From NCBI GenBank assembly GCA_028714615.1, contig JAQTMA010000118.1, forward strand, positions 1 through 12,500: 12,500 bases of DNA, written 5' to 3'. Below are positions 1 to 12,500 of this stretch, piece after piece. The DNA comes from Anaerolineaceae bacterium (GTDB taxonomy: Bacteria > Chloroflexota > Anaerolineae > Anaerolineales > Anaerolineaceae). Numbering within the stretch: the stretch's first letter is position 1; the number at the start of each line of letters is the position of its first letter. The notes beneath the pieces were generated by a model. That model was given only the letters and a program-made list of their open reading frames with translations. It made no database searches and was not told where the DNA came from. A program made the position numbers and the translations under genes.

Positions 1-1043
1 CCCATGGGATAAGCGCCCAGCTCACCCGGGGAGACCCAGGCTAGAGCACTGGCCTCAAGAGGTTGAGGGTTGCCTTCAACCAGCCGGCAGCAAAACGCGT
101 GCAGCGTCACTTTGAAATGGGTATAGGCATGCCGGTAGACTCCGATTGGCTCACCCACCTCGATCTGCACCCCCAGTTCTTCGAGGATCTCGCGGCGCAG
201 GCAAGCAGGAAGGTCCTCACCCTCCTGTTGTTTGCCACCCGGGAATTCCCACATGCCGCCGAGCAGTCCCTCCGCAGGCCGTCGCGTGATGAGAAATGGG
301 CCGGTGCGGCAACCCAGATGCTCAGCATCCGCGCGCTGCAGAATGGCTGCTGTAACGGTGTAATGGGGAATGGCGGGTTTGGCTGCTAACACCGGGCGTT
401 GCTCCTGGATGCCCAGCTCGCGCGCCTGGCACACCTCCATCACCGGGCAGATCAGACACGCCGGGGCATGCGGGGTACAGATGGCCGAACCCAGGTCCAT
501 GATAGCCTGGTTGTAATCCCCGGCCCGCCCAGGTGGCAGATTCTCGCGCGCCAGTCCCCATAGGCGCGCCTCTCCATTGGGAGAGCGGGCAGGCAAATCT
601 ACGTTAAATACGCGAGCCAGCACCCGGCGGATATTCCCATCCAGGGCTGGCTCGTCCTGGCCAAATACGATGGACGCGATAGCGCCGGCCGAATAACGCC
701 CGATCCCGGGTAATGCTTGCAGAGCATCCCTTTGCGAGGGTATCTGACCGGCGTATTTCTGCTCCACTTCCTGGGCGGCCCGCCACAGGTTGCGGGCCCG
801 ACTGTAGTAGCCCAATCCCTCCCAGGTCCGCAAGACCTCCTGCAGGGGAGCCTTCGCAAGATCGCGAATGGTGGGAAAGCGTTCCATCCAGCGGTGGAAA
901 TACGGGATGACCGTCTCCACTCGCGTCTGTTGGAGCATGATTTCCGACACCCATACCGCATAGGGGTCTGGATGGCCGCGCCAGGGCAAGCTGCGGGCGC
1001 TGCGCGCATACCAGGCCAGCAACCGCCGTGTAAATTCACCCAT
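1..1043 (-). CDS. mutY: A/G-specific adenine DNA glycosylase MutY (3' end cut off by window edge)
   Basis: MutY removes adenine mispaired with 8-oxoguanine in base-excision repair. The frame is open from the ATG at 1043 to the left edge (347 codons), with no stop. The N-terminal HhH-GPD part contains LPWRGHPDPY and SEIMLQQTRVETVIPYF, with catalytic Glu34. LPGIGRYSAGA (111-121) is the helix-hairpin-helix, and LDGNIRRVLAR carries catalytic Asp135. Cys189, 196, 199 and 205 form a perfect C-X6-C-X2-C-X5-C [4Fe-4S] loop. The C-terminal MutT-like domain (about 225 onward) has a complete Nudix box, G270-X5-E276-X7-R284-E285-ILEE-LG, which is usually degenerate in MutY. The gene starts 8 bases after the stop of the 100-aa gene, so it is probably the last known member of a three-gene operon. 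No clear Shine-Dalgarno precedes the ATG, so translation may be coupled to the upstream gene. Family assignment is near certain; only the extreme C-terminus is missing. Confidence 0.96.
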   Translation of the reverse strand, partial: MGEFTRRLLAWYARSARSLPWRGHPDPYAVWVSEIMLQQTRVETVIPYFHRWMERFPTIRDLAKAPLQEVLRTWEGLGYYSRARNLWRAAQEVEQKYAGQIPSQRDALQALPGIGRYSAGAIASIVFGQDEPALDGNIRRVLARVFNVDLPARSPNGEARLWGLARENLPPGRAGDYNQAIMDLGSAICTPHAPACLICPVMEVCQARELGIQEQRPVLAAKPAIPHYTVTAAILQRADAEHLGCRTGPFLITRRPAEGLLGGMWEFPGGKQQEGEDLPACLRREILEELGVQIEVGEPIGVYRHAYTHFKVTLHAFCCRLVEGNPQPLEASALAWVSPGELGAYPM

Positions 1044-2242: not shown

Positions 2243-2316
2243 TCCTCGATAGCTCAATTCGGCAGAGCGGGCGGCTGTTAACCGCTAGGTTCCAGGTTCG
2301 AGTCCTGGTCGAGGAG
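2243..2316 (+). tRNA. tRNA-Asn (anticodon GTT)
   Basis: A complete cloverleaf can be drawn by eye. The acceptor stem pairs TCCTCGA (2243-2249) with TCGAGGA (2309-2315), with G2316 as discriminator. The D stem pairs GCTC with GAGC around a loop containing GG. The anticodon stem (2270-2274 with 2282-2286, one G-U pair) closes the loop CTGTTAA, so the anticodon is GTT (2277-2279) and the charge is asparagine. The variable loop is AGGTT, and the T arm is CCAGG, TTCGAGT, CCTGG. The 3' CCA is not encoded (CCT follows), so it must be added after transcription. The gene stands alone, with its own promoter and a hairpin behind it. Confidence 0.97.
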
Positions 2317-2329
2317 CCTATCTATCCTG

Positions 2330-2360
2330 ATCCCCTGGAGACGCCGTCCAGGGGATTATT
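2330..2360 (+). terminator. Hairpin terminator after tRNA-Asn
   Basis: A perfect 10-bp inverted repeat, ATCCCCTGGA (2330-2339) and TCCAGGGGAT (2347-2356), closes a 7-base loop. It begins 13 bases after the tRNA and is followed by TATTGATTT, a weak T-tract. A rho-independent terminator is the simplest reading, though the tail is poor. Confidence 0.7.
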
Positions 2361-2527: not shown

Positions 2528-3796
2528 ATGCAGAAAAATCAATTGGATGCCAGCTTGCTTTCGGTGTTCCGCTTGTTCGTCGGCATCCGCCTGGCTTTTA
2601 CCGCGCTGACGCTACTGGCTTCTAGCTGGTTCGGGCCGCGTTTTACCCGATTTGAAGCGGTGCCCGTGCTGAGTGTGCTCGATGCTGCCTTTCTGTTGGC
2701 TTACCTTTCCTGGCCATGGCTGCGACGGAAATTCGGACCAGCCTACTTGCCGGTTGCCTTGTTGATCGCAACAGTCGGTCCGATCCTCGAGAATTTCTAT
2801 ATCCTGGACCTTCAGGTGAACACAGCCGAGATCATCCAGGTGCGCGCGCTGGCCGGACAGTGGCAGGTGATCATCCTGCTGTTGGTGCCGGTTATTTTGA
2901 TCGCCTGGCAGTACTCGTTTCGTACGGTGGTGGTCTCTCTGCTCAGTCTGGCTGCTGTGGACATGACCCTCATCGCCTCGATCGGCAGCTCGTCCGAGAT
3001 GCGCTTGGGGCCCGGACTGAGCATCGTCTTCTTCCGCACACTGATCTTTCTGTTGATCGGATACACTATCAACCGCCTGGCGGCTGAACTGAGGATGCAA
3101 AACAGCCGGCTGGCGCAAGCCAATCAGCAGCTCGCCAGCAACGCCAATACCGTAGAACAATTGACCATTAGCCGCGAGCGCAACCGCATGGCCCGCGAGC
3201 TGCACGATACCCTGGCGCACTCCCTCAGCGCGGTAGCCGTCCAATTGGAGGCTGCCAGCGCGCTGTGGGAATCCGACGGGCAACAGGCGCGCGCGATGGT
3301 GGATCGATCCCTGCACCTGACCCGGGATGGATTGAATGAGGCGCGCCGGGCCATCCAGGCGCTGCGCACGGCTCCCCTCGAAGACCTTGGGCTCAATCTG
3401 GCATTGCGCACTCTGGCCCTGTCCGAGGCTGAAAGGGGAGGTTACGCGGTCCAACTGGATCTTCCCGACGAAATGCCTCGCATCGATCCCGGGGCTGAAC
3501 ACAGCCTGTACCGCATCGCCGAAGAAGCCCTGCGGAACGCGGCCTGGCATTCCTCGGCCGCCCATGTAAGCCTGCGTATGGCTCTTACCGCCGGACTCCT
3601 CGAGATGACCATTGAGGACGACGGCTGCGGATTTGTGGACGGCGCGGTGCTGCAGGCTGAACATTATGGCTTACGCGGGATGCGCGAGCGGGCCGAAGCT
3701 CTGGGAGCAGAATTCAAAATTATCACCAAACCGGACCAGGGAACGTCTATCCACCTGGTGATGGAGGCCAACTATGGTCAAAGTCCTGATATGTGA
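2528..3796 (+). CDS. Membrane sensor histidine kinase, HisKA_3 (NarL/LiaS/DesK-like) type
   Basis: This 422-residue kinase pairs with the regulator that follows. The N-terminal half holds about six hydrophobic segments (roughly 12-32, 46-62, 73-93, 112-128, 131-152 and 163-182) with little outside the membrane, as in intramembrane-sensing kinases. A short helical linker (184-218) leads to the dimerisation/phosphoacceptor motif ERNRMARELHDTLAHSLSAV, with His226 as the phosphorylated residue. The ATPase domain follows: N-box EEALRNAAWH (332-341), G1 box DDGCGF (364-369), then YGLRGMRERAEALG (380-393) and GTS (405-407). The length is ordinary for the class. There is no Shine-Dalgarno at the ATG; see the leaderless promoter call. 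Its end overlaps the regulator gene by 23 bases. The signal sensed is unknown; membrane or cell-envelope stress is a guess from the architecture. Confidence 0.94.
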   Translation: MQKNQLDASLLSVFRLFVGIRLAFTALTLLASSWFGPRFTRFEAVPVLSVLDAAFLLAYLSWPWLRRKFGPAYLPVALLIATVGPILENFYILDLQVNTAEIIQVRALAGQWQVIILLLVPVILIAWQYSFRTVVVSLLSLAAVDMTLIASIGSSSEMRLGPGLSIVFFRTLIFLLIGYTINRLAAELRMQNSRLAQANQQLASNANTVEQLTISRERNRMARELHDTLAHSLSAVAVQLEAASALWESDGQQARAMVDRSLHLTRDGLNEARRAIQALRTAPLEDLGLNLALRTLALSEAERGGYAVQLDLPDEMPRIDPGAEHSLYRIAEEALRNAAWHSSAAHVSLRMALTAGLLEMTIEDDGCGFVDGAVLQAEHYGLRGMRERAEALGAEFKIITKPDQGTSIHLVMEANYGQSPDM

Positions 3797-4421
3797 TGAC
3801 CAGGCCGTGGTGTGTGAAGGGTTGAAAGCTATCCTGGGGACTTCTCCCGGGATCGAAGTGGTTGGGATCGCCAATGACGGAGCCCAGGCCGTCGACTTGA
3901 TCGGCCAATTCCACCCGGATGTGGTATTAATGGACTTGAAGATGCCGGTGATGAATGGCATTCAGGCTACGCGCACGATACGGACGCTGCACCCGCAGGT
4001 GCGCGTGCTGGTCTTGACCACCTATGATTTTGACGATTGGGTTTTCGATGCGATCCATTCGGGAGCCGCCGGGTACCTGCTCAAGGACACACCACGGGAT
4101 GCCTTGATCGCCGCCATCCAGGGTACCGCCAGCGGGAAAACCTACGTGGACCCGGGGGTGGCTGGAAAACTGTTCGAACGCATCAGCGGGGGTAACATCC
4201 CGGAGGATACCGAGCTTATCAGCCGGCTGAGCGAGCGGGAAATCGCCGTCCTGCGCCTTCTCTCCCAGGGAATGAGCAATACTGAGATCTCTCAGCAATT
4301 ATACTTGTCAGAAGGAACCGTGCGGAATTACGTGAGCGCTATCCTGACCAAGTTGGACGTCCCCGACCGTACCCGGGCGGCGCTCATCGCGCTCCATGCT
4401 GGTCTGGCAAAAAGTAACTGA
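3774..4421 (+). CDS. Two-component response regulator, NarL/FixJ (LuxR-type HTH) family
   Basis: This 215-residue protein is a DNA-binding transcription regulator phosphorylated by the kinase encoded just upstream. The receiver domain (1-118) has the acidic pair Asp8-Asp9, phospho-acceptor Asp54 in LMDLKMP, Thr82/Thr83 and Lys104 in LLKD, so all switch residues are present. The LuxR-type helix-turn-helix occupies about 150-210: LSEREIAVLRLLSQGMSN, then EISQQLYLSEGTVRNYVSAI. GGAGG lies 6 bases before the ATG, inside the kinase gene, and the two genes overlap by 23 bases, so translation is likely coupled. The target genes are unknown. Autoregulation through the palindrome at 2464-2485 is possible but unproven. 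Only 25 bases separate its stop from the convergent sixA stop, and no terminator hairpin is seen there. Confidence 0.95.
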   Translation: MVKVLICDDQAVVCEGLKAILGTSPGIEVVGIANDGAQAVDLIGQFHPDVVLMDLKMPVMNGIQATRTIRTLHPQVRVLVLTTYDFDDWVFDAIHSGAAGYLLKDTPRDALIAAIQGTASGKTYVDPGVAGKLFERISGGNIPEDTELISRLSEREIAVLRLLSQGMSNTEISQQLYLSEGTVRNYVSAILTKLDVPDRTRAALIALHAGLAKSN

Positions 4422-4446
4422 CCCGTGAATGATTCAATTTGAGGAT

Positions 4447-4944
4447 CTACTCTTCTTCCATTTCCTTCGGACTCCACAGCTCGATCAGTTCGGCGTGGGT
4501 TTTCTTGTGGATATCTTTCCAGGAATCGACCGGTACCGCCAGGTACGCGATGGCGGCCGTAGGTAATGCGGCTACACGTTTGGTCAACATGGGGAGCAGG
4601 CTCTCCAATCCCGGATTATGCCCGATCACCATGACACGCTCCAGGTCGTCCGGCAGCGGTGCGAGCACGGCGAGGATTTCATCGGCTTCGGCCATGTAAA
4701 GCTCATCCAGGTAGCGCACTTCACCCTGGTACCCGAGCGCCTGGCAGAATAACTCGGTGGTCTCTTTTGCGCGGACTGCGGAGGAGGAAAGGATCAACTG
4801 GGGGATCAATTCCTTCTCGTGCACCAACTTGCCCATTTGGGGAGCGTTGCGTTTACCCCGTTTGCTCAGCGGTCGCTTGCGATCCTTGAGATCTTGTTCT
4901 TTCCAACTCGATTTTGCATGTCGCATGAGTAACAATGTTTTCAC
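4447..4944 (-). CDS. sixA: Phosphohistidine phosphatase SixA-like protein (histidine phosphatase family)
   Basis: This 165-residue protein belongs to the branch of the RHG/histidine-phosphatase superfamily that removes phosphate from histidine residues of signalling proteins; E. coli SixA acts on the HPt domain of ArcB. It opens MKTLLLMRHAKSSW, the SixA form of the RHG motif, with Arg8 and nucleophile His9. SSSAVRAKET supplies Arg58, and VIGHNPGLE supplies the second catalytic His109. It has no signal peptide and is probably cytoplasmic. I start it at the GTG at 4944: AGAGG lies 7 bases upstream and the length matches SixA. An in-frame ATG at 5016 would add 24 residues unlike the family, lacks a ribosome site, and lies upstream of a TATAAT. 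It converges with the two-component pair; a role in damping that system is only a guess, since no HPt domain is encoded nearby. Confidence 0.9.
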   Translation of the reverse strand: MKTLLLMRHAKSSWKEQDLKDRKRPLSKRGKRNAPQMGKLVHEKELIPQLILSSSAVRAKETTELFCQALGYQGEVRYLDELYMAEADEILAVLAPLPDDLERVMVIGHNPGLESLLPMLTKRVAALPTAAIAYLAVPVDSWKDIHKKTHAELIELWSPKEMEEE

Positions 4945-5007
4945 GGTGAGGCCTCTTTCCTGTCCCCAATCATCTGGCAGATGCGCCAGACAATCCTTTA
5001 TCTCCAA

Positions 5008-5013
5008 ATTATA
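5008..5013 (-). promoter_or_regulatory. Candidate -10 element (TATAAT) for sixA
   Basis: A perfect TATAAT on the minus strand predicts a start near 5001, giving a leader of about 57 bases before the GTG at 4944. No good -35 is visible. The upstream ATG at 5016 would be excluded from this transcript. Confidence 0.5.
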
Positions 5014-5069
5014 CATTAAGTCAGGGAGGAATTCGATAATTGACGCAGGTTTTCCAGAAAAACTTGGTT

Positions 5070-5075
5070 TATAAT
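5070..5075 (+). promoter_or_regulatory. Candidate -10 element (TATAAT) for the ABC-F leader transcript
   Basis: A perfect TATAAT sits 38 bases before the upstream ORF and predicts a start near 5082. The nearest good -35-like hexamer, TTGACG (5040-5045), is 24 bases away. That is too far for a normal sigma-70 spacing, so the -35 is unassigned. Confidence 0.55.
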
Positions 5076-5107
5076 AATCTGGTCGTCTTTCAGATTAAGG
5101 ATATCAG

Positions 5108-5128
5108 ATGCGCACGAGCAACCTGTAA
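5108..5128 (+). CDS. Six-codon upstream ORF (MRTSNL), candidate leader peptide of the ABC-F gene
   Basis: ATG CGC ACG AGC AAC CTG TAA encodes MRTSNL. AAGGA (5097-5101) lies 6 bases before the ATG, a textbook Shine-Dalgarno and better than that of the ABC-F gene itself. It lies between a TATAAT and an intrinsic terminator that precedes the ABC-F start. Short upstream ORFs of this kind control ABC-F resistance genes by ribosome stalling in Firmicutes. Its first codons (5106-5111) are complementary to 5151-5156, so ribosome occupancy could change the folding of the leader. The peptide is probably regulatory through its translation, not as a product. It has no detectable family. Confidence 0.6.
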   Translation: MRTSNL

Positions 5129-5154
5129 ATCATCTCACTTGTTAGGGTAAGCAT

Positions 5155-5200
5155 CTCGGGCCGGCGGTTACCTGCTGGCTGCCAACATAATTGCACCGAG
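5155..5200 (+). promoter_or_regulatory. Possible antiterminator fold in the ABC-F leader
   Basis: CTCGG (5155-5159) can pair with CCGAG (5196-5200), the 5' arm of the terminator, and would enclose a hairpin of GCCGGC (5160-5165) with GCTGGC (5174-5179). This excludes the terminator. A rival pairing, AGATGC (5106-5111) with GCATCT (5151-5156), overlaps it by two bases. Pairings were found by eye; energies were not computed. Confidence 0.4.
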
Positions 5201-5226
5201 GGCTTGGGCCTTCGGTTTTCCTTTTT
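5196..5226 (+). terminator. Intrinsic terminator in the leader of the ABC-F gene (attenuator)
   Basis: An 8-bp stem pairs 5196-5203 with 5208-5215 (one G-U pair) around the tetraloop TTGG. The tail TTTTCCTTTTT follows directly. It lies about 115 bases into the predicted leader and 17 bases before the ABC-F ATG. No gene that would need terminating precedes it on this strand, so it most likely acts as a conditional attenuator. Confidence 0.8.
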
Positions 5227-5242
5227 AATCAACAGGTTGCAT

Positions 5243-6895
5243 ATGTTATCCGTTTCTCAACTTTCCAAATCTTTTGGAATCGAAACCATCCTCGATGGGG
5301 TGAGCTTTCAGCTCAATCCCGGAGACCGCTTCGGGCTGGTAGGCCCCAACGGTTGCGGGAAGACCACCCTGCTGCGCATTCTGGCCGGAGAGGAACGACC
5401 CGATTCAGGTAGCTTTCACTTCAACCCGCCCAACCTCCGGTGGGGATACCTGCCCCAGGGTCTTCCCTTCCACGAAGAGGAAACCGTGGCAATGTTCCTC
5501 AACCGCATAGCAGGCGACCTGGACGGCTTGACCCGGCGCCTGGAAGAGCTGGCCACTCGGCTGGCGGCCAACCCGAACCAGGCGGACGATCATGGCGAGT
5601 ACGATCAGATCCTCAGTCGCCTGTCATTGGCCTCGGAGAATTCCGGGCGCGGGCCTGCCGTCCTGTCCGGCCTGGGGCTGGGCCAGGTGGCGTTCGATTC
5701 TCCGGTCGCTCACCTGAGCGGCGGCCAAAAAACCCGCCTGGGACTGGCCGGGGTGCTGTTAGCTGCTCCCCAGCTATTGCTCTTGGATGAGCCGACCAAC
5801 CACCTCGATCTGGAAATGCTCACCTGGCTGGAGGATTGGCTCGTCCACATGCCGGTGCGCACTCCGATAGGGGTATTGCTCGTCTCCCACGACCGGGCCT
5901 TCCTGGACCAGGTGGTAAACGGCATCCTGGAGATTGACCCGCGCAGTCACCACTTAAGGGCTTACTCCGGTAACTACACAGACTATCTGGAACAAAAACT
6001 GGCCGAAAAGGATAAACAATGGCAAGCCTACAGCGACCAACAGGTCGAGGTCGAACGCCTGAAAACCGCCGCCCGCCACTTGCGCGGCATCGCCCAGTTC
6101 CGCAAGGGCGGGAAAGCCGACAGCGGGGATAAATATGCCAGGGGTTTCTTTGCTAACCGCGCGTTGGCCACGGTCGGACGAGCCAAGCACATCGAGGCTC
6201 GCCTCGAAAAACTATTGGAGGAAGAACGCGTAGATAAACCTCGGGATGATTGGCAGATGAAGTTGGAATTCAGCGGGGCCCCTCAAACGGGGCGCGACGT
6301 GGTGGTGCTGGAGGAACTCGCCATCGGTTATGGAGAAAACCGCCTGTTATCCGGGCTGAACCAGACCATGCGAGCCGGCGCCCGGGTGGTGCTGGTGGGG
6401 CCGAACGGGGCCGGGAAGACCACCTTGCTGCGCACCATCGCTGGGCTGATCCCGCCGCTGGCCGGACGCGCCCGATTGGGTCCTAGCGTGCGCGCCGGCT
6501 ACATGATGCAAGAACAAGAAGACCTCGACTCCGGTTTGAATGCCTTGCAGACCATCCAGCGCATCCTCACCCAGTCTGAGACAGAGGCGCGCAACTTCCT
6601 GCACTACTTCTTGTTTTCCGGCGACGATGTGTTTACACCGGTGGGCAGTCTATCGTACGGGGAGCGCGCACGCCTGTCTTTAGCTTGTTTGGTGGCTCAG
6701 GGATGCAATCTCTTGCTGCTGGACGAGCCACTCAACCACCTGGACATCCCTTCGCGAGCGCGCTTCGAGCAAGCCTTGGCAAAGTACCCGGGGAGCGTAC
6801 TGGCAGTGGTCCACGACCGCTATTTCATCCAGGGGTTTGCGTCAGAAATTTGGGAGGTAAAGGGGAAGGGAATCGGGCAGTACGAGGTGAATTAA
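5243..6895 (+). CDS. ABC-F family ATPase (ribosome-associated, dual ATP-binding cassette)
   Basis: ABC-F proteins have two ATP-binding cassettes and no membrane part. They bind the ribosomal E site to assist translation or displace antibiotics. This one has 550 residues. Cassette 1: Walker A GPNGCGKTT (34-42), signature LSGGQ (158-162), Walker B LLLDEP (Glu183) and SHD (215-217). The charged inter-domain linker (about 240-335) is where the P-site tRNA interaction motif lies. Cassette 2: Walker A GPNGAGKTT (386-394), signature LSYGE (470-474), Walker B LLLDEP (Glu495) and VHD (523-525). I start at the ATG at 5243, giving MLSVSQLSKSF; an in-frame TTG at 5204 falls inside the terminator hairpin and lacks a ribosome site. 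The Shine-Dalgarno is weak (CAGG, 5233-5236). The leader with upstream ORF and terminator suggests induction by ribosome-targeting drugs. I cannot assign the subfamily, so antibiotic resistance versus a housekeeping translation role remains open. Confidence 0.93.
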   Translation: MLSVSQLSKSFGIETILDGVSFQLNPGDRFGLVGPNGCGKTTLLRILAGEERPDSGSFHFNPPNLRWGYLPQGLPFHEEETVAMFLNRIAGDLDGLTRRLEELATRLAANPNQADDHGEYDQILSRLSLASENSGRGPAVLSGLGLGQVAFDSPVAHLSGGQKTRLGLAGVLLAAPQLLLLDEPTNHLDLEMLTWLEDWLVHMPVRTPIGVLLVSHDRAFLDQVVNGILEIDPRSHHLRAYSGNYTDYLEQKLAEKDKQWQAYSDQQVEVERLKTAARHLRGIAQFRKGGKADSGDKYARGFFANRALATVGRAKHIEARLEKLLEEERVDKPRDDWQMKLEFSGAPQTGRDVVVLEELAIGYGENRLLSGLNQTMRAGARVVLVGPNGAGKTTLLRTIAGLIPPLAGRARLGPSVRAGYMMQEQEDLDSGLNALQTIQRILTQSETEARNFLHYFLFSGDDVFTPVGSLSYGERARLSLACLVAQGCNLLLLDEPLNHLDIPSRARFEQALAKYPGSVLAVVHDRYFIQGFASEIWEVKGKGIGQYEVN

Positions 6896-6903
6896 CAATG
6901 ACG

Positions 6904-6933
6904 GGTAGAGGCGAGGCGTGCCTTGCCTCTACC
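6904..6933. terminator. 13-bp palindromic hairpin between convergent genes, likely bidirectional terminator or REP-like element
   Basis: GGTAGAGGCGAGG (6904-6916) pairs with CCTTGCCTCTACC (6921-6933), with one G-U pair and a 4-base loop. It lies 8 bases after the ABC-F stop and 5 bases beyond the convergent exporter stop. T-tracts are weak on both strands, so it could also be a dispersed palindromic repeat doing terminator duty. Confidence 0.7.
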
Positions 6934-9054: not shown

Positions 9055-12000
9055 CTAGCAGAATTCCCACTGCTTCAAGCGGAAAAAAGCTTCGACCACC
9101 TTGGGATCAAAATGCTTTCCGGATTGTTCGAGCAAGAAAGCGCATACTTTTTCTTCTGGCCAGGCTTTACGGTAAGGGCGATCTGAAGAGAGCGCATCCC
9201 ATACATCCACCAAGGCGAAGATGCGCGCGGTTAGCGGGATTTCATCACGTTTCAACCCGTGTGGATAACCGGACCCATCCCATTTCTCGTGGTGGTAGTT
9301 GGGAATATCCAGGGCAGGGCGCAGGAATCCGATCGGGGAAAGCAGCGAGTAGGCATGTTCGGGGTGCTTTCGCATGATCACCCATTCTTCGGGGGTGAGC
9401 GGGCCGGGCTTTTGCAGAATCTCATCCGGAATGGCCATCTTTCCAATGTCGTGCAGCAGAGCGCCGCGGCGGATATGGACGATTTGGCTTTCGTTGATTC
9501 CCATTTGGCGGGCCAGCTCCAGGGTCATTTCGGTGACCCGCAAGGTATGATACTCGGTGTCACGATCGCGCAAATCGAGCGCCCGCGACCAACCCTCGAT
9601 GGTGGCATCGTATGCCTGCGATAGTTCGAAGTTCGACCGCTCTAAGTTATTGAACATCTCCACATTGTCCAGGGCGATGGCGGCCTGACCGGCCAGTGAT
9701 TCGAGGAAATCCATCCATTCACGGTCGAGACGGAGCGGTGAGCGGTGGAAGACTTCCATGACCCCTTTCACCTGGCCCTTGGCCACAAATGGCAGCGACA
9801 CGGAGGTGAGAAAACCCTCCTGAGCCAGCAGTCGTGAGCGGTCGTCGTCCAGCACACGCAAATCGGTAACGGTATACGTGCGCCGTTCCAAAACGGCGTT
9901 GATCAGCGCAGTGCGGTGGCCGGCGTTGCCAAAACCAGATATGGACAGCCGCATCTGCGTCAGGGCTGGGTTGCGGAACCCACGTCCGGCGCCCCATTCC
10001 AGGATGCGCGAAGTGGGATTGAACAACCAGATATCCGCCGCGTCGATTTTTAGGGTGGAAATCGTCTCATCTACGAGAATACTCAATGTGAGCTTGGCAT
10101 CGATGGAGGCAGTAATGGCCATGTCGATCGTGCGCAGTGTGCTCAAACGCTGCAAGCGTTCTTCAGTCTGCTCGTGCAAGCGCGCCCGGTGGATGGCGCT
10201 GGCAGCAATCTCCCCGATGGCCGTTAATAACCGGGTATCCTCATTCCGAATGACGCTCTGCCGGCCCATGCACAGAACCCCGATGAGTTGGTCCTGGGTC
10301 AACAGGGGAACGCACAACAGGGCTTGCACGCCTTGCTTAAAGGGAACGGATTGCAACTCGGGATCGTCGAGGACATGGTTATTCAGATAAGGCTGGCCGC
10401 CGGCAACCATCTTGCCGCATGCGGTTTGGCCTAAGCTAATCGAAGTCCCGCTCAATCGCTCCCACTCTCCCTGTGCCACCTCAACCAACAGGTTTTCTTC
10501 AGCACCGGTTTGCAAGATCAGGGCCGTCCCATCCGCCTGCAATAAGTCACGCACCTGGTCCAGGATGATCGGCAACATCTCAGTAGAGGATTGGGCTACT
10601 CGCAAAGCCGAGGTAACTTTTTCTAACACGGCCAATTCATGGCTGCGCTGCAGCTCTGCCTCGAACAAGCGCAATTTTTCTATTGCGATTCCGACCTCTC
10701 CGGCCACGACGGACAACAAGCGTTCGTCCGCCTCCGTAAATTTACCGACCTGGGTGCTTTCCGCATTCAAGACACCCAACACCCGTTCCCCTACCATGAT
10801 CGGCACACTAATCTCCGAGCGGGTCAATGGGTCAGCAGCCACGTAGTCTGATTCCTCGCATGTGTCCGTCACCAGGCGAGATTTCTTGTGTTGGGCTACC
10901 CAGCCGATAATTCCTTCGCCCGGTTGGAGAGCCGGTTGGACCATCCCTGCCCGGATGCGGTAAGAATCATGGAATCGAAACACTCCGGTGGTTTCATCCA
11001 AGAAAGCCAAACCGAAATCATCGGAGTAGATCATATCGCCGATCAATCGGGTCACCCGTTCGATCAGCTCATCCAAACTGGTCGCCTCGTTTCCGGCCAT
11101 AGCCACGGCGTGCAGTGCGGTCATATCGTTCAAGAGACGCGCCTGGGCCTGTTCGGCTTTACGCCGTTCGGCGATATCGCGGGCAACGACCTGGCAGGCC
11201 GGTTTGCCCTCATACGTGAAGGGGCTGGCTGTCACTTCAGCATCAACCGTAGAGCCATCCAGCCGGAGATAGGTTTCGTAAATCGGCTGGACACTGACTT
11301 TTTCTACCTGGACGGTTTGCACCCGCTGCCGAACAATCTCGCGATCCTCTGGAGAGACACGTTCCATCACATCCGTCCCGATCAACTCGTCCGGGGTATT
11401 GGCTCCAAACAGCTTCAGGCAAGCAGGATTGACATAAACCAGCTTGCCTTCACAGTGGATGTAGATGGCATCCGGCGACAGTTCCACCAGGTTGCGATAA
11501 TGCTCGGCGCTCTGGCGCAACTCTTCGTTAGCTTTTCGGGCCTCCAGGTTCTTCTTCTCGAGAGCTGTCCCCATTTCATTAAACGAGCGCGATAATTCGC
11601 CCAGGTCGCTCATTCCATACGGAGAACTGGCGCGGACACTAAAGTCCCCTCCCGCCATGCGCCGGGTAGCCAGAACCAATTCTGAAATACGGCGGAGGAG
11701 AAAAAAGTAGGCTCCAACCCAGGCTGCGGCCAACACCAGGAGAGTGATGATCCCAAACACGGTCAGATCTGCAGCAAGAGCCCGATCAGCCTCTGCATAA
11801 GCAACGCTGGTGGGAATGCTGATGCTTACCAGGATGCCCTTGACGGTAGCATCGTTCATCAGGTGGATGTATCCAACCAGGCGTGGTACGCCGTCCAGCC
11901 CCACCCCCTGGGTCGTTCCCTCGACATTCGCCTGCATCTTTCGAAATAGGTCGGTCTCTGCAGTACCTTTTCCAATGTATTGATCCGGGTCTGGGTAGCG

Positions 12001-12500
12001 GGCCAGGATCACACCCTCCGGATCGTACAATGTAAAAGTTGACCCCGCGGGGAGCTTCACATCGATGACCAGTTGGGTCAGCCAATTCAGATCTACGGCG
12101 GCATATACCACGGATTTGATTAGTCCGGACGGAAGGGTAGTCGGGTAGCCAAAGTTAATCTGGGGTTGGTGGGTAATCCGTCCAATCTGGAAATCACCGT
12201 GCGCAAAGGTGTGCGTAGCCATCGTGCGCTGAAACCAGGGCCGGTCCATGACGTTGACTGGACTGGTCATAGGAAGCGCGGAGCAAAGGATATCTCCGTT
12301 TGCATTTGCCACGCCCAGGTTCGAATATTGCCTGAATTGTTTCAAAACACCAGCCAGGAATGCGGAACACGCATGTGCATCGGAGCCACGCACAGCCTCG
12401 ACCTGCGCCAATCCCGTCAGCAATTGGCGAGTTCCTTCTTCCTGCCGGTTGAATTCAGCAGAGACGAGGCGAGTAAGGCGTAACGCCTCCTCCTGAATAC
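9055..12500 (-). CDS. Cache-HAMP-PAS-GAF(x3)-HD-GYP protein, probable cyclic-di-GMP phosphodiesterase (5' end beyond window)
   Basis: The frame is open from the right edge to the stop at 9055: 1147 residues in the window, with the true start outside. Positions below count from the codon at 12423. An extracytoplasmic Cache sensor (1 to about 205, with VMDRPWFQRT and NFGYP) is followed by a membrane helix (219-243), a HAMP domain (about 243-297), PAS (about 308-420), GAF domains near 435-585, 595-750 and 760-922, and a C-terminal HD-GYP domain (940-1122). The catalytic set is complete: H959, HDIGK (991-995), H1020, HHEKWDGSGYP (1044-1054) and D1073 in VDVWDAL. HD-GYP enzymes hydrolyse c-di-GMP to pGpG or GMP, so this should link an external ligand and cytoplasmic signals to c-di-GMP removal. 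No GGDEF or EAL domain is present. A first membrane helix is expected just beyond the edge. The ligands are unknown. Confidence 0.94.
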   Translation of the reverse strand, partial: IQEEALRLTRLVSAEFNRQEEGTRQLLTGLAQVEAVRGSDAHACSAFLAGVLKQFRQYSNLGVANANGDILCSALPMTSPVNVMDRPWFQRTMATHTFAHGDFQIGRITHQPQINFGYPTTLPSGLIKSVVYAAVDLNWLTQLVIDVKLPAGSTFTLYDPEGVILARYPDPDQYIGKGTAETDLFRKMQANVEGTTQGVGLDGVPRLVGYIHLMNDATVKGILVSISIPTSVAYAEADRALAADLTVFGIITLLVLAAAWVGAYFFLLRRISELVLATRRMAGGDFSVRASSPYGMSDLGELSRSFNEMGTALEKKNLEARKANEELRQSAEHYRNLVELSPDAIYIHCEGKLVYVNPACLKLFGANTPDELIGTDVMERVSPEDREIVRQRVQTVQVEKVSVQPIYETYLRLDGSTVDAEVTASPFTYEGKPACQVVARDIAERRKAEQAQARLLNDMTALHAVAMAGNEATSLDELIERVTRLIGDMIYSDDFGLAFLDETTGVFRFHDSYRIRAGMVQPALQPGEGIIGWVAQHKKSRLVTDTCEESDYVAADPLTRSEISVPIMVGERVLGVLNAESTQVGKFTEADERLLSVVAGEVGIAIEKLRLFEAELQRSHELAVLEKVTSALRVAQSSTEMLPIILDQVRDLLQADGTALILQTGAEENLLVEVAQGEWERLSGTSISLGQTACGKMVAGGQPYLNNHVLDDPELQSVPFKQGVQALLCVPLLTQDQLIGVLCMGRQSVIRNEDTRLLTAIGEIAASAIHRARLHEQTEERLQRLSTLRTIDMAITASIDAKLTLSILVDETISTLKIDAADIWLFNPTSRILEWGAGRGFRNPALTQMRLSISGFGNAGHRTALINAVLERRTYTVTDLRVLDDDRSRLLAQEGFLTSVSLPFVAKGQVKGVMEVFHRSPLRLDREWMDFLESLAGQAAIALDNVEMFNNLERSNFELSQAYDATIEGWSRALDLRDRDTEYHTLRVTEMTLELARQMGINESQIVHIRRGALLHDIGKMAIPDEILQKPGPLTPEEWVIMRKHPEHAYSLLSPIGFLRPALDIPNYHHEKWDGSGYPHGLKRDEIPLTARIFALVDVWDALSSDRPYRKAWPEEKVCAFLLEQSGKHFDPKVVEAFFRLKQWEFC

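Follow-up and report, generated by a model that had tools for sequence, protein, structure and literature searches.

Why should a strong transcription stop signal lie directly in front of the start codon of a gene on the same strand? This question is raised by an ABC-F ATPase gene (5243-6895, plus strand; 550 amino acids, ATG at 5243, stop at 6895) carried by a 12,500-nucleotide stretch of contig JAQTMA010000118.1 from an Anaerolineaceae bacterium, the whole of which was analysed and is called the window here. An earlier note on this DNA had read the region ahead of the gene as a ribosome-sensing attenuator. The landmarks on which that proposal was built, namely a TATAAT element (5070-5075), an AAGGA Shine-Dalgarno (SD) motif (5097-5101), a short open reading frame (ORF) encoding MRTSNL (5108-5128) and the ABC-F ATG (5243), all lie where the note had placed them. 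Based on the analysis described below, we lean towards the view that the leader (5082-5243) controls ABC-F transcription as a ribosome-mediated attenuator.

The stop signal consists of a hairpin, SL-3 (ACCGAGGGC-TTGG-GCCTTCGGT; 5195-5216, plus strand), with nine pairs, one of them G-U, and a UUGG loop, followed by a U-rich tail, TTTCCTTTTT (equivalent to UUUCCUUUUU; 8/10, 5217-5226), whose end lies 16 bases ahead of the ABC-F ATG. The earlier note was right in placing an intrinsic terminator ahead of this ATG, while its count of eight pairs in the stem has to be corrected to nine. The 22-base stem folds at -14.6 kcal/mol, and only one of 500 shuffled sequences was as stable. A strict scan of both strands of the window (stem of at least eight pairs, at least five of them G-C, and at least six T in ten) returned the SL-3 terminator and two other sites, and a consensus scan also lists SL-3. 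Among non-redundant loci from other phyla, such a terminator was present 5-60 bases ahead of the start in three of 361 non-ABC-F ORFs and in one of 37 ABC-F ORFs, a count made over 75 bases upstream, from which very long stems can escape. By this count, ABC-F genes are not clearly richer than other ORFs in directly upstream terminators. The redundant count gave an upstream terminator for 7 of 488 ORFs, four of which are ABC-F genes of one family (L014, L016, L020 and L021). Overall, the stop signal is solid, and its role as terminator and attenuator is likely. As a separate observation, the four related ABC-F genes of that family (IMG/VR contigs, about 5918-5994) share one 9-pair terminator stem some 31-34 bases before the first start codon within a long self-complementary leader, which may be another leader attenuator.

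The main reason for calling the leader an attenuator in effect is that a polymerase making the ABC-F mRNA has to pass this terminator. A consensus scan found no promoter-like site on the plus strand between 5079 and 5243, and because no such site follows 5078 the ABC-F mRNA must read through the terminator. The promoter is nevertheless the weak element of the proposal. The candidate -10, TATAAT, was read directly and lacks a -35 match 16-18 bases away; the nearest promoter-scan match is TTTCCA-16-AATAAT (9/12), and promoter-like sites in the whole window are not in excess (four found against 5.8 expected from shuffles). A transcription start near 5082 was assumed for leader folding, giving a leader of about 161 nt. 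An example of a strong promoter and terminator in this genome is provided by the tRNA-Asn unit of the window (tRNA 2243-2318, plus strand; promoter-to-hairpin stretch 2205-2358), with a perfect-consensus promoter, TTGACA-16-TATAAT, ahead and a strong terminator-like hairpin behind (2328-2358, plus strand); the ABC-F promoter is clearly weaker. An 8-base direct repeat, GGTTTTCC, found on the plus strand both in the promoter region (5048-5055) and across the terminator end (5214-5221), probably occurs by chance.

The scans also bear on a different explanation of the terminator, in which it ends read-through from the upstream kinase and regulator genes (2528-4421) and ABC-F transcription begins from a promoter, overlapping or unrecognised, right at the gene start. 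The terminator scan found no plus-strand terminator-like site in 4421-5195, including the 25-base convergent gap, a result that also qualifies the earlier claim, which is probably right, that no other plus-strand gene needs this terminator. In addition, TTTAAT at 5224-5229 resembles a -10. However, the terminator lies about 770 bases beyond the response regulator, with a SixA-like gene in antisense, and TTTAAT has no fitting -35, while transcription beginning near 5236 would exclude the AGG at 5234-5236 from the mRNA. Together with the lack of a plus-strand promoter-like site after 5078, these observations make the read-through explanation improbable.

Between the assumed transcription start and the terminator, the leader holds a short upstream ORF (uORF; 5108-5128, plus strand) of six codons and a stop, ATG CGC ACG AGC AAC CTG TAA, in which no amino acid forms a run. 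Its SD, AAGGA, stands at proper spacing, six bases from the ATG, and translation of the uORF is a prediction. In 114 of 5000 shuffled leaders (1 in 44) there was an ATG uORF 2-30 codons long whose SD matched in at least five bases. Relaxing the SD match to at least four raised the number to 550 of 5000, and allowing any start codon with the same match raised it to 1195 of 5000.

Folding predictions place this uORF within a set of alternative RNA structures. The free leader (5082-5226) is predicted to fold as SL-1, SL-2 and SL-3. SL-1 (5106-5156), a candidate anti-antiterminator, has a base, AGAUGC:GCAUCU, that contains the uORF start codon, and SL-2 (5159-5180) is a middle hairpin of -14.1 kcal/mol, reached by 4 of 500 shuffles. 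The alternative is an antiterminator, whose 5' strand, UAAGC.UCUCGG (5148-5159), overlaps the 3' arm of SL-1 and whose 3' strand (5196-5206) includes most of the terminator 5' arm; 5148-5152 pairs with 5202-5206 and 5154-5159 with 5196-5201, and the inner part of SL-2 (5160-5179) forms the apex. This structure is predicted to be mutually exclusive with both SL-1 and the SL-3 terminator. The 59-base antiterminator piece alone folds at -25.4 kcal/mol, matched in 4 of 500 shuffles, and it is the best fold before the SL-3 3' arm exists, with a probability of 0.97 in transcripts ending at 5206-5212. A ribosome on the uORF is predicted to matter as the transcript grows further. At length 5214 the antiterminator probability was 0.367 in the free transcript against 0.86-0.96 under seven ribosome masks (0.955 with mask 5095-5125, on the start codon), and at length 5216 it was 0.07 with this mask and 0.00 without a ribosome.

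The uORF may also act on a second layer at the ABC-F ribosome-binding site (RBS). Its last codons, GCAACCUGU (5118-5126), form a candidate anti-SD that would pair without mismatch, over 9 bp, with the ABC-F ribosome-binding region, ACAGGUUGC (5232-5240, AGG at 5234-5236). A complement of this kind arose in 9 of 1500 leader shuffles and in 15 of 3000 shuffles of the uORF segment. The predicted pairing probability falls from 0.92 in the free leader to 0.02 with a ribosome on the uORF, and the cost of opening the RBS falls from 6.6 to 4.5 kcal/mol once a ribosome occupies the start codon and to 2.6-4.3 kcal/mol when it is further along. These values are suggestive of masking of the ABC-F RBS by the last uORF codons. 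The cost itself is unremarkable (129 of 1000 shuffles are as high), as is the ribosome effect on it (91 of 1000). The 9-bp inverted repeat was also considered as part of a transposon or a DNA loop, a reading that was set aside; the 9-mer is found once more, inside a MutY-like gene (785-793, minus strand).

The perfect complement and its response to a ribosome are also what would be expected if translation attenuation were the main layer, with the 3' half of the uORF covering the ABC-F RBS in the manner of erm leaders and the terminator doing no more than trimming basal transcription. On the other side, the opening cost is usual when compared with shuffles, and most transcripts would stop short of the RBS. 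Such an arrangement therefore seems quite improbable as the principal mode of control.

In an effort to evaluate how unusual the predicted switch is, the terminator was kept and the rest of the leader was shuffled, either as a whole or with its halves shuffled apart (n=3000 each). The antiterminator gain under the ribosome mask was reached by 138 of 3000 (whole) and 129 of 3000 (halves) shuffles. Gain and ribosome effect were reached jointly by 26 and 18 of 3000, respectively, and the cost measure and ribosome effect jointly by 46 and 28 of 3000. At transcript length 5208 no switch was seen (394 of 1000 shuffles were as large), while the antiterminator probability under the mask was reached by 20 of 1000. 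Because the antiterminator forms either way at this length, the full-length cost and lengths 5213-5215 were used next; with the latter, 47 of 1500 shuffles reached the antiterminator value, 98 the switch and 12 the two together. The antiterminator is thus a 1 in 20 to 1 in 50 occurrence, and the antiterminator combined with a ribosome switch a 1 in 65-170 occurrence, which lends moderate support, as judged by tests whose sensitivity is uncalibrated for want of a known drug-inducible leader as positive control.

Several results weigh against a leader switched by a ribosome, in addition to the weak promoter and the ordinary RBS opening cost given above. SL-1 (-8.4 kcal/mol) is no better than chance, with 248 of 500 shuffles reaching its stability, and the stability of the whole leader is ordinary (81 of 500). 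The uORF SD is predicted to be mostly paired in the growing transcript (probability unpaired 0.10-0.38, given a start at 5082). Up to length 5212 the presence of a ribosome makes no difference to the antiterminator, and the finished terminator prevails at equilibrium even under a ribosome, with the antiterminator at 0.01-0.07 for the seven masks at length 5226. The ribosome effect alone is not rare (223 of 3000 whole and 140 of 3000 halves shuffles, and 98 of 1500 by the length-based measure). Finally, single values near 1% are weaker than they look because several measures were tried. Since the complete terminator wins at equilibrium even with a ribosome in place, any switch must be kinetic, and in the fold predictions a ribosome tips the balance either over a stretch of a few bases only or through kinetics.

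Some of these points would equally suit a true ABC-F leader attenuator that is not read by a ribosome on the uORF and responds instead to transcription speed, a protein, a ligand or default read-through, leaving MRTSNL as a chance ORF. Of the leader parts, the terminator and antiterminator have the better support, and SL-1 is at chance level; ATG uORFs with an SD match of at least four are common in shuffled leaders; and the antiterminator forms until 5212 whether or not a ribosome is present. Such an attenuator has to be reconciled, however, with the good SD and spacing of the uORF (seen in 114 of 5000 shuffles at an SD match of at least five), and with the exact coincidence of its start codon with bases pairing to the antiterminator strand, and of its last codons with the complement of the ABC-F RBS. 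The leader has no Rfam match, and the ABC-F attenuators described in PMC9226507, PMC10201436 and PMC8546547 use uORFs. We consider the uORF-independent attenuator unlikely.

The shuffle results also bear on whether anything in the leader is selected at all. Most single RNA measures fall at 0.5-10% or are not unusual, and the finding was picked from the whole window, as might be expected of a chance assembly. However, strong terminators so close ahead of a start are rare, as the three cases in 361 other ORFs indicate, and weak signals that are independent of one another fall together in an arrangement already published. We regard a purely fortuitous arrangement as very improbable.

Returning to the ribosome-mediated attenuator that we favour, the predicted structures suggest the following sequence of events. 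By default, the uORF would be translated and released (or left untranslated), SL-1 would hold 5151-5156, SL-3 would form and transcription would stop at about 5222-5226. A ribosome held on the start or early codons of the uORF (footprint about 5093-5123) would prevent the base of SL-1 from forming, and the freed 5148-5159 could then pair with the emerging 5196-5206, delaying SL-3 and letting transcription run into the ABC-F gene. In a weaker second layer, the same stalled ribosome would uncover the ABC-F RBS that the last uORF codons otherwise pair with. The natural signal would most likely be an antibiotic that stalls early translation and is cleared by the ABC-F protein. The chance that the MRTSNL uORF senses ribosomes in this manner appears somewhat better than even, and an antibiotic as the signal is plausible from the protein family. 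The ribosome-sensing proposal of the earlier note is thus partly supported, as regards a terminator to be passed and a well-spaced uORF SD, and the present analysis adds to it SL-1, SL-2 and the predicted exclusive antiterminator. The drug, translation and resistance parts are still presumptive.

The ABC-F protein itself was examined for features that could distinguish a resistance factor. Against the NF000355 model, 'ribosomal protection-like ABC-F', it reached 414.8 bits (cut-off 380), which bears out the ABC-F assignment of the earlier note within a broad family that lies above its cut-off in 8 of 14 control genomes. It is far below the cut-offs of the named resistance families in NCBIfam. 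PF00005 in two stretches and PF12848 indicate two ABC domains and a two-helix linker, with no membrane part, and a structure model built from 32 sequences (predicted local distance difference test score 86.3, predicted template modelling score 0.78) places the linker helices at 245-284 and 297-325. Foldseek matches in the PDB are headed by EttA, with PoxtA, VmlR2, Uup, YbiT, YheS and VmlR in the top 18; because these are ABC-F proteins of many kinds, the fold cannot separate resistance from housekeeping. All 120 homologues listed have at least 61% identity, which would also suit a widespread housekeeping factor. The three among them that bear organism names are Anaerolineaceae or Anaerolineae, in agreement with the earlier description of the genome as Chloroflexota-like. 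It is possible that this protein gives resistance.

An unrooted tree of 67 rows, comprising 15 of the homologues (the Chloroflexota rows) and 52 non-redundant locus rows, was used to place the protein among its relatives. The Chloroflexota rows form their own clade (100/100), and this clade together with a 14-row set is separated from the other 38 rows at 92/97. The 14-row set, itself supported at only 83/62, includes nine NF000171 (TlrC/CarA-type) rows, four of which pass the NF000171 cut-off; uneven composition and long branches were flagged in this tree. All 32 of the A1 members match NF000171, but just as much as they match EttA, Uup, Vga and further ABC-F models, so that this result does not discriminate. 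Twenty of the 52 locus rows were labelled with NCBIfam (E 1e-130) as EttA, YheS, YbiT-type or NF000355, with nothing returned for 8 of the 20. Because none of these labelled rows matched Vga, Lsa, Msr, Sal or OptrA at this threshold, the tree is silent on those families.

The surrounding genes suggest that the ABC-F gene stands alone, because its stop is followed directly by a 13-pair hairpin with a T-poor tail (6904-6933, plus strand) and an MsbA-like ABC exporter gene, encoded on the minus strand, comes next. The hairpin is probably the end of a single-gene ABC-F unit. Upstream lie the histidine kinase (2528-3796, plus strand), the response regulator (3774-4421, plus strand) and the SixA-like histidine phosphatase (4447-5016, minus strand; to 4944 if a GTG is the start). 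In profile searches the phosphatase is above the PF00300 cut-off and below that of the SixA model. Its profile match starts just past the internal GTG at 4944, which has a GAGG upstream, and a true start there may extend the divergent intergenic region to about 298 bases. Further along the window, a large sensor protein (9055-12498, minus strand) with HAMP, PAS, three GAF stretches and a C-terminal HD-type domain (HD_5) runs off the end; it also has a dCache match below the cut-off.

Searches for relatives yielded no orthologue leader to set beside this one, a point against the proposed attenuator. A genome-contig search with the single ABC-F protein gave two matches of 24-29% identity. Viral contigs searched with an alignment query gave a top identity of 37% among the best 80 of 171 relatives, and the 308 plasmid records at E <=1e-40 were all below 60% identity. 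Twenty-one genomes around that of Streptomonospora alba, from another phylum, reached a top identity of 39%, and 198 genomes around it gave no match at E 1e-95, a search that had no positive control and is therefore uninformative. The leader DNA had no match in plasmids, and Rfam returned only a tRNA at gathering score and nothing at E <=5 in 5017-5300. Among the open-licence papers listed, none on such a leader in Chloroflexi, Chloroflexota or Anaerolineae was found, which is weak evidence of absence. In the portions available, PMC2965389 and PMC10219788 contain no Chloroflexi case and PMC4833913 mentions the Chloroflexi solely as a group whose genomes were too few.

The broadest form of our proposal is tentative and rather doubtful: a vmlR-like, three-hairpin, drug-sensing attenuator may exist in the Anaerolineae (Chloroflexota), attached to an ABC-F clade of its own, in which a single six-codon uORF serves twice, its start codon blocking the antiterminator strand and its last codons acting as anti-SD of the ABC-F gene, so that one stalled ribosome would open transcription and translation together. 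If true, it would be a convergent, independent invention of the Firmicutes layout and evidence that these Chloroflexota meet ribosome-targeting antibiotics, and it would extend uORF-attenuated inducible ribosome protection past the Firmicutes and Actinobacteria of the cited papers into the Chloroflexota. With respect to the protein, Murina et al. (PMC6723617) list ARE4a for Chloroflexi and ARE4 (TlrC, CarA, OleB, SrmB) for Actinobacteria and Chloroflexi. The Chloroflexota clade stands beside the 14-row group with its NF000171-type rows, yet it is a separate clade, and the ABC-F protein scored 315.5 bits against the ARE4 model NF000171, below the cut-off of 800.

With respect to the leader, three published cases allow a direct comparison. 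The vmlR leader of Bacillus subtilis (PMC9226507) has a uORF-bearing SL-1 as anti-antiterminator, SL-2 at the antiterminator apex, SL-3 as terminator and an SL-4 that partly hides the vmlR SD. The leader described here corresponds one to one in its predicted SL-1, SL-2 and SL-3, in a uORF SD before SL-1, in the ABC-F gene downstream and in a possible further layer hiding the main SD. The two differ in that the vmlR uORF is MIN, of three codons, in a 219-nt leader, compared with MRTSNL in about 161 nt, and in that the main SD is hidden by the downstream SL-4 in vmlR and possibly by uORF codons here. Mapped pause sites are a feature of the vmlR leader only, and the likeness is one of layout. The experimentally tested cplR leader of Clostridioides difficile (PMC10201436), with a Met-Arg-Ile uORF, likewise has its uORF in a 5' hairpin, an antiterminator and a terminator at the ABC-F start, and it combines transcription and translation attenuation, the latter being a possible layer here. 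Its uORF also begins Met-Arg (consensus MR[I/M]) but has three codons, and its main SD is inside the terminator hairpin, whereas the ABC-F SD here follows the terminator. The lmrC leader of the actinobacterium Streptomyces lincolnensis (PMC8546547) shares a premature terminator and an alternative antiterminator before an ABC-F gene, but its uORF2 overlaps the terminator and has to be translated for termination, whereas the uORF described here stops 66 bases upstream.

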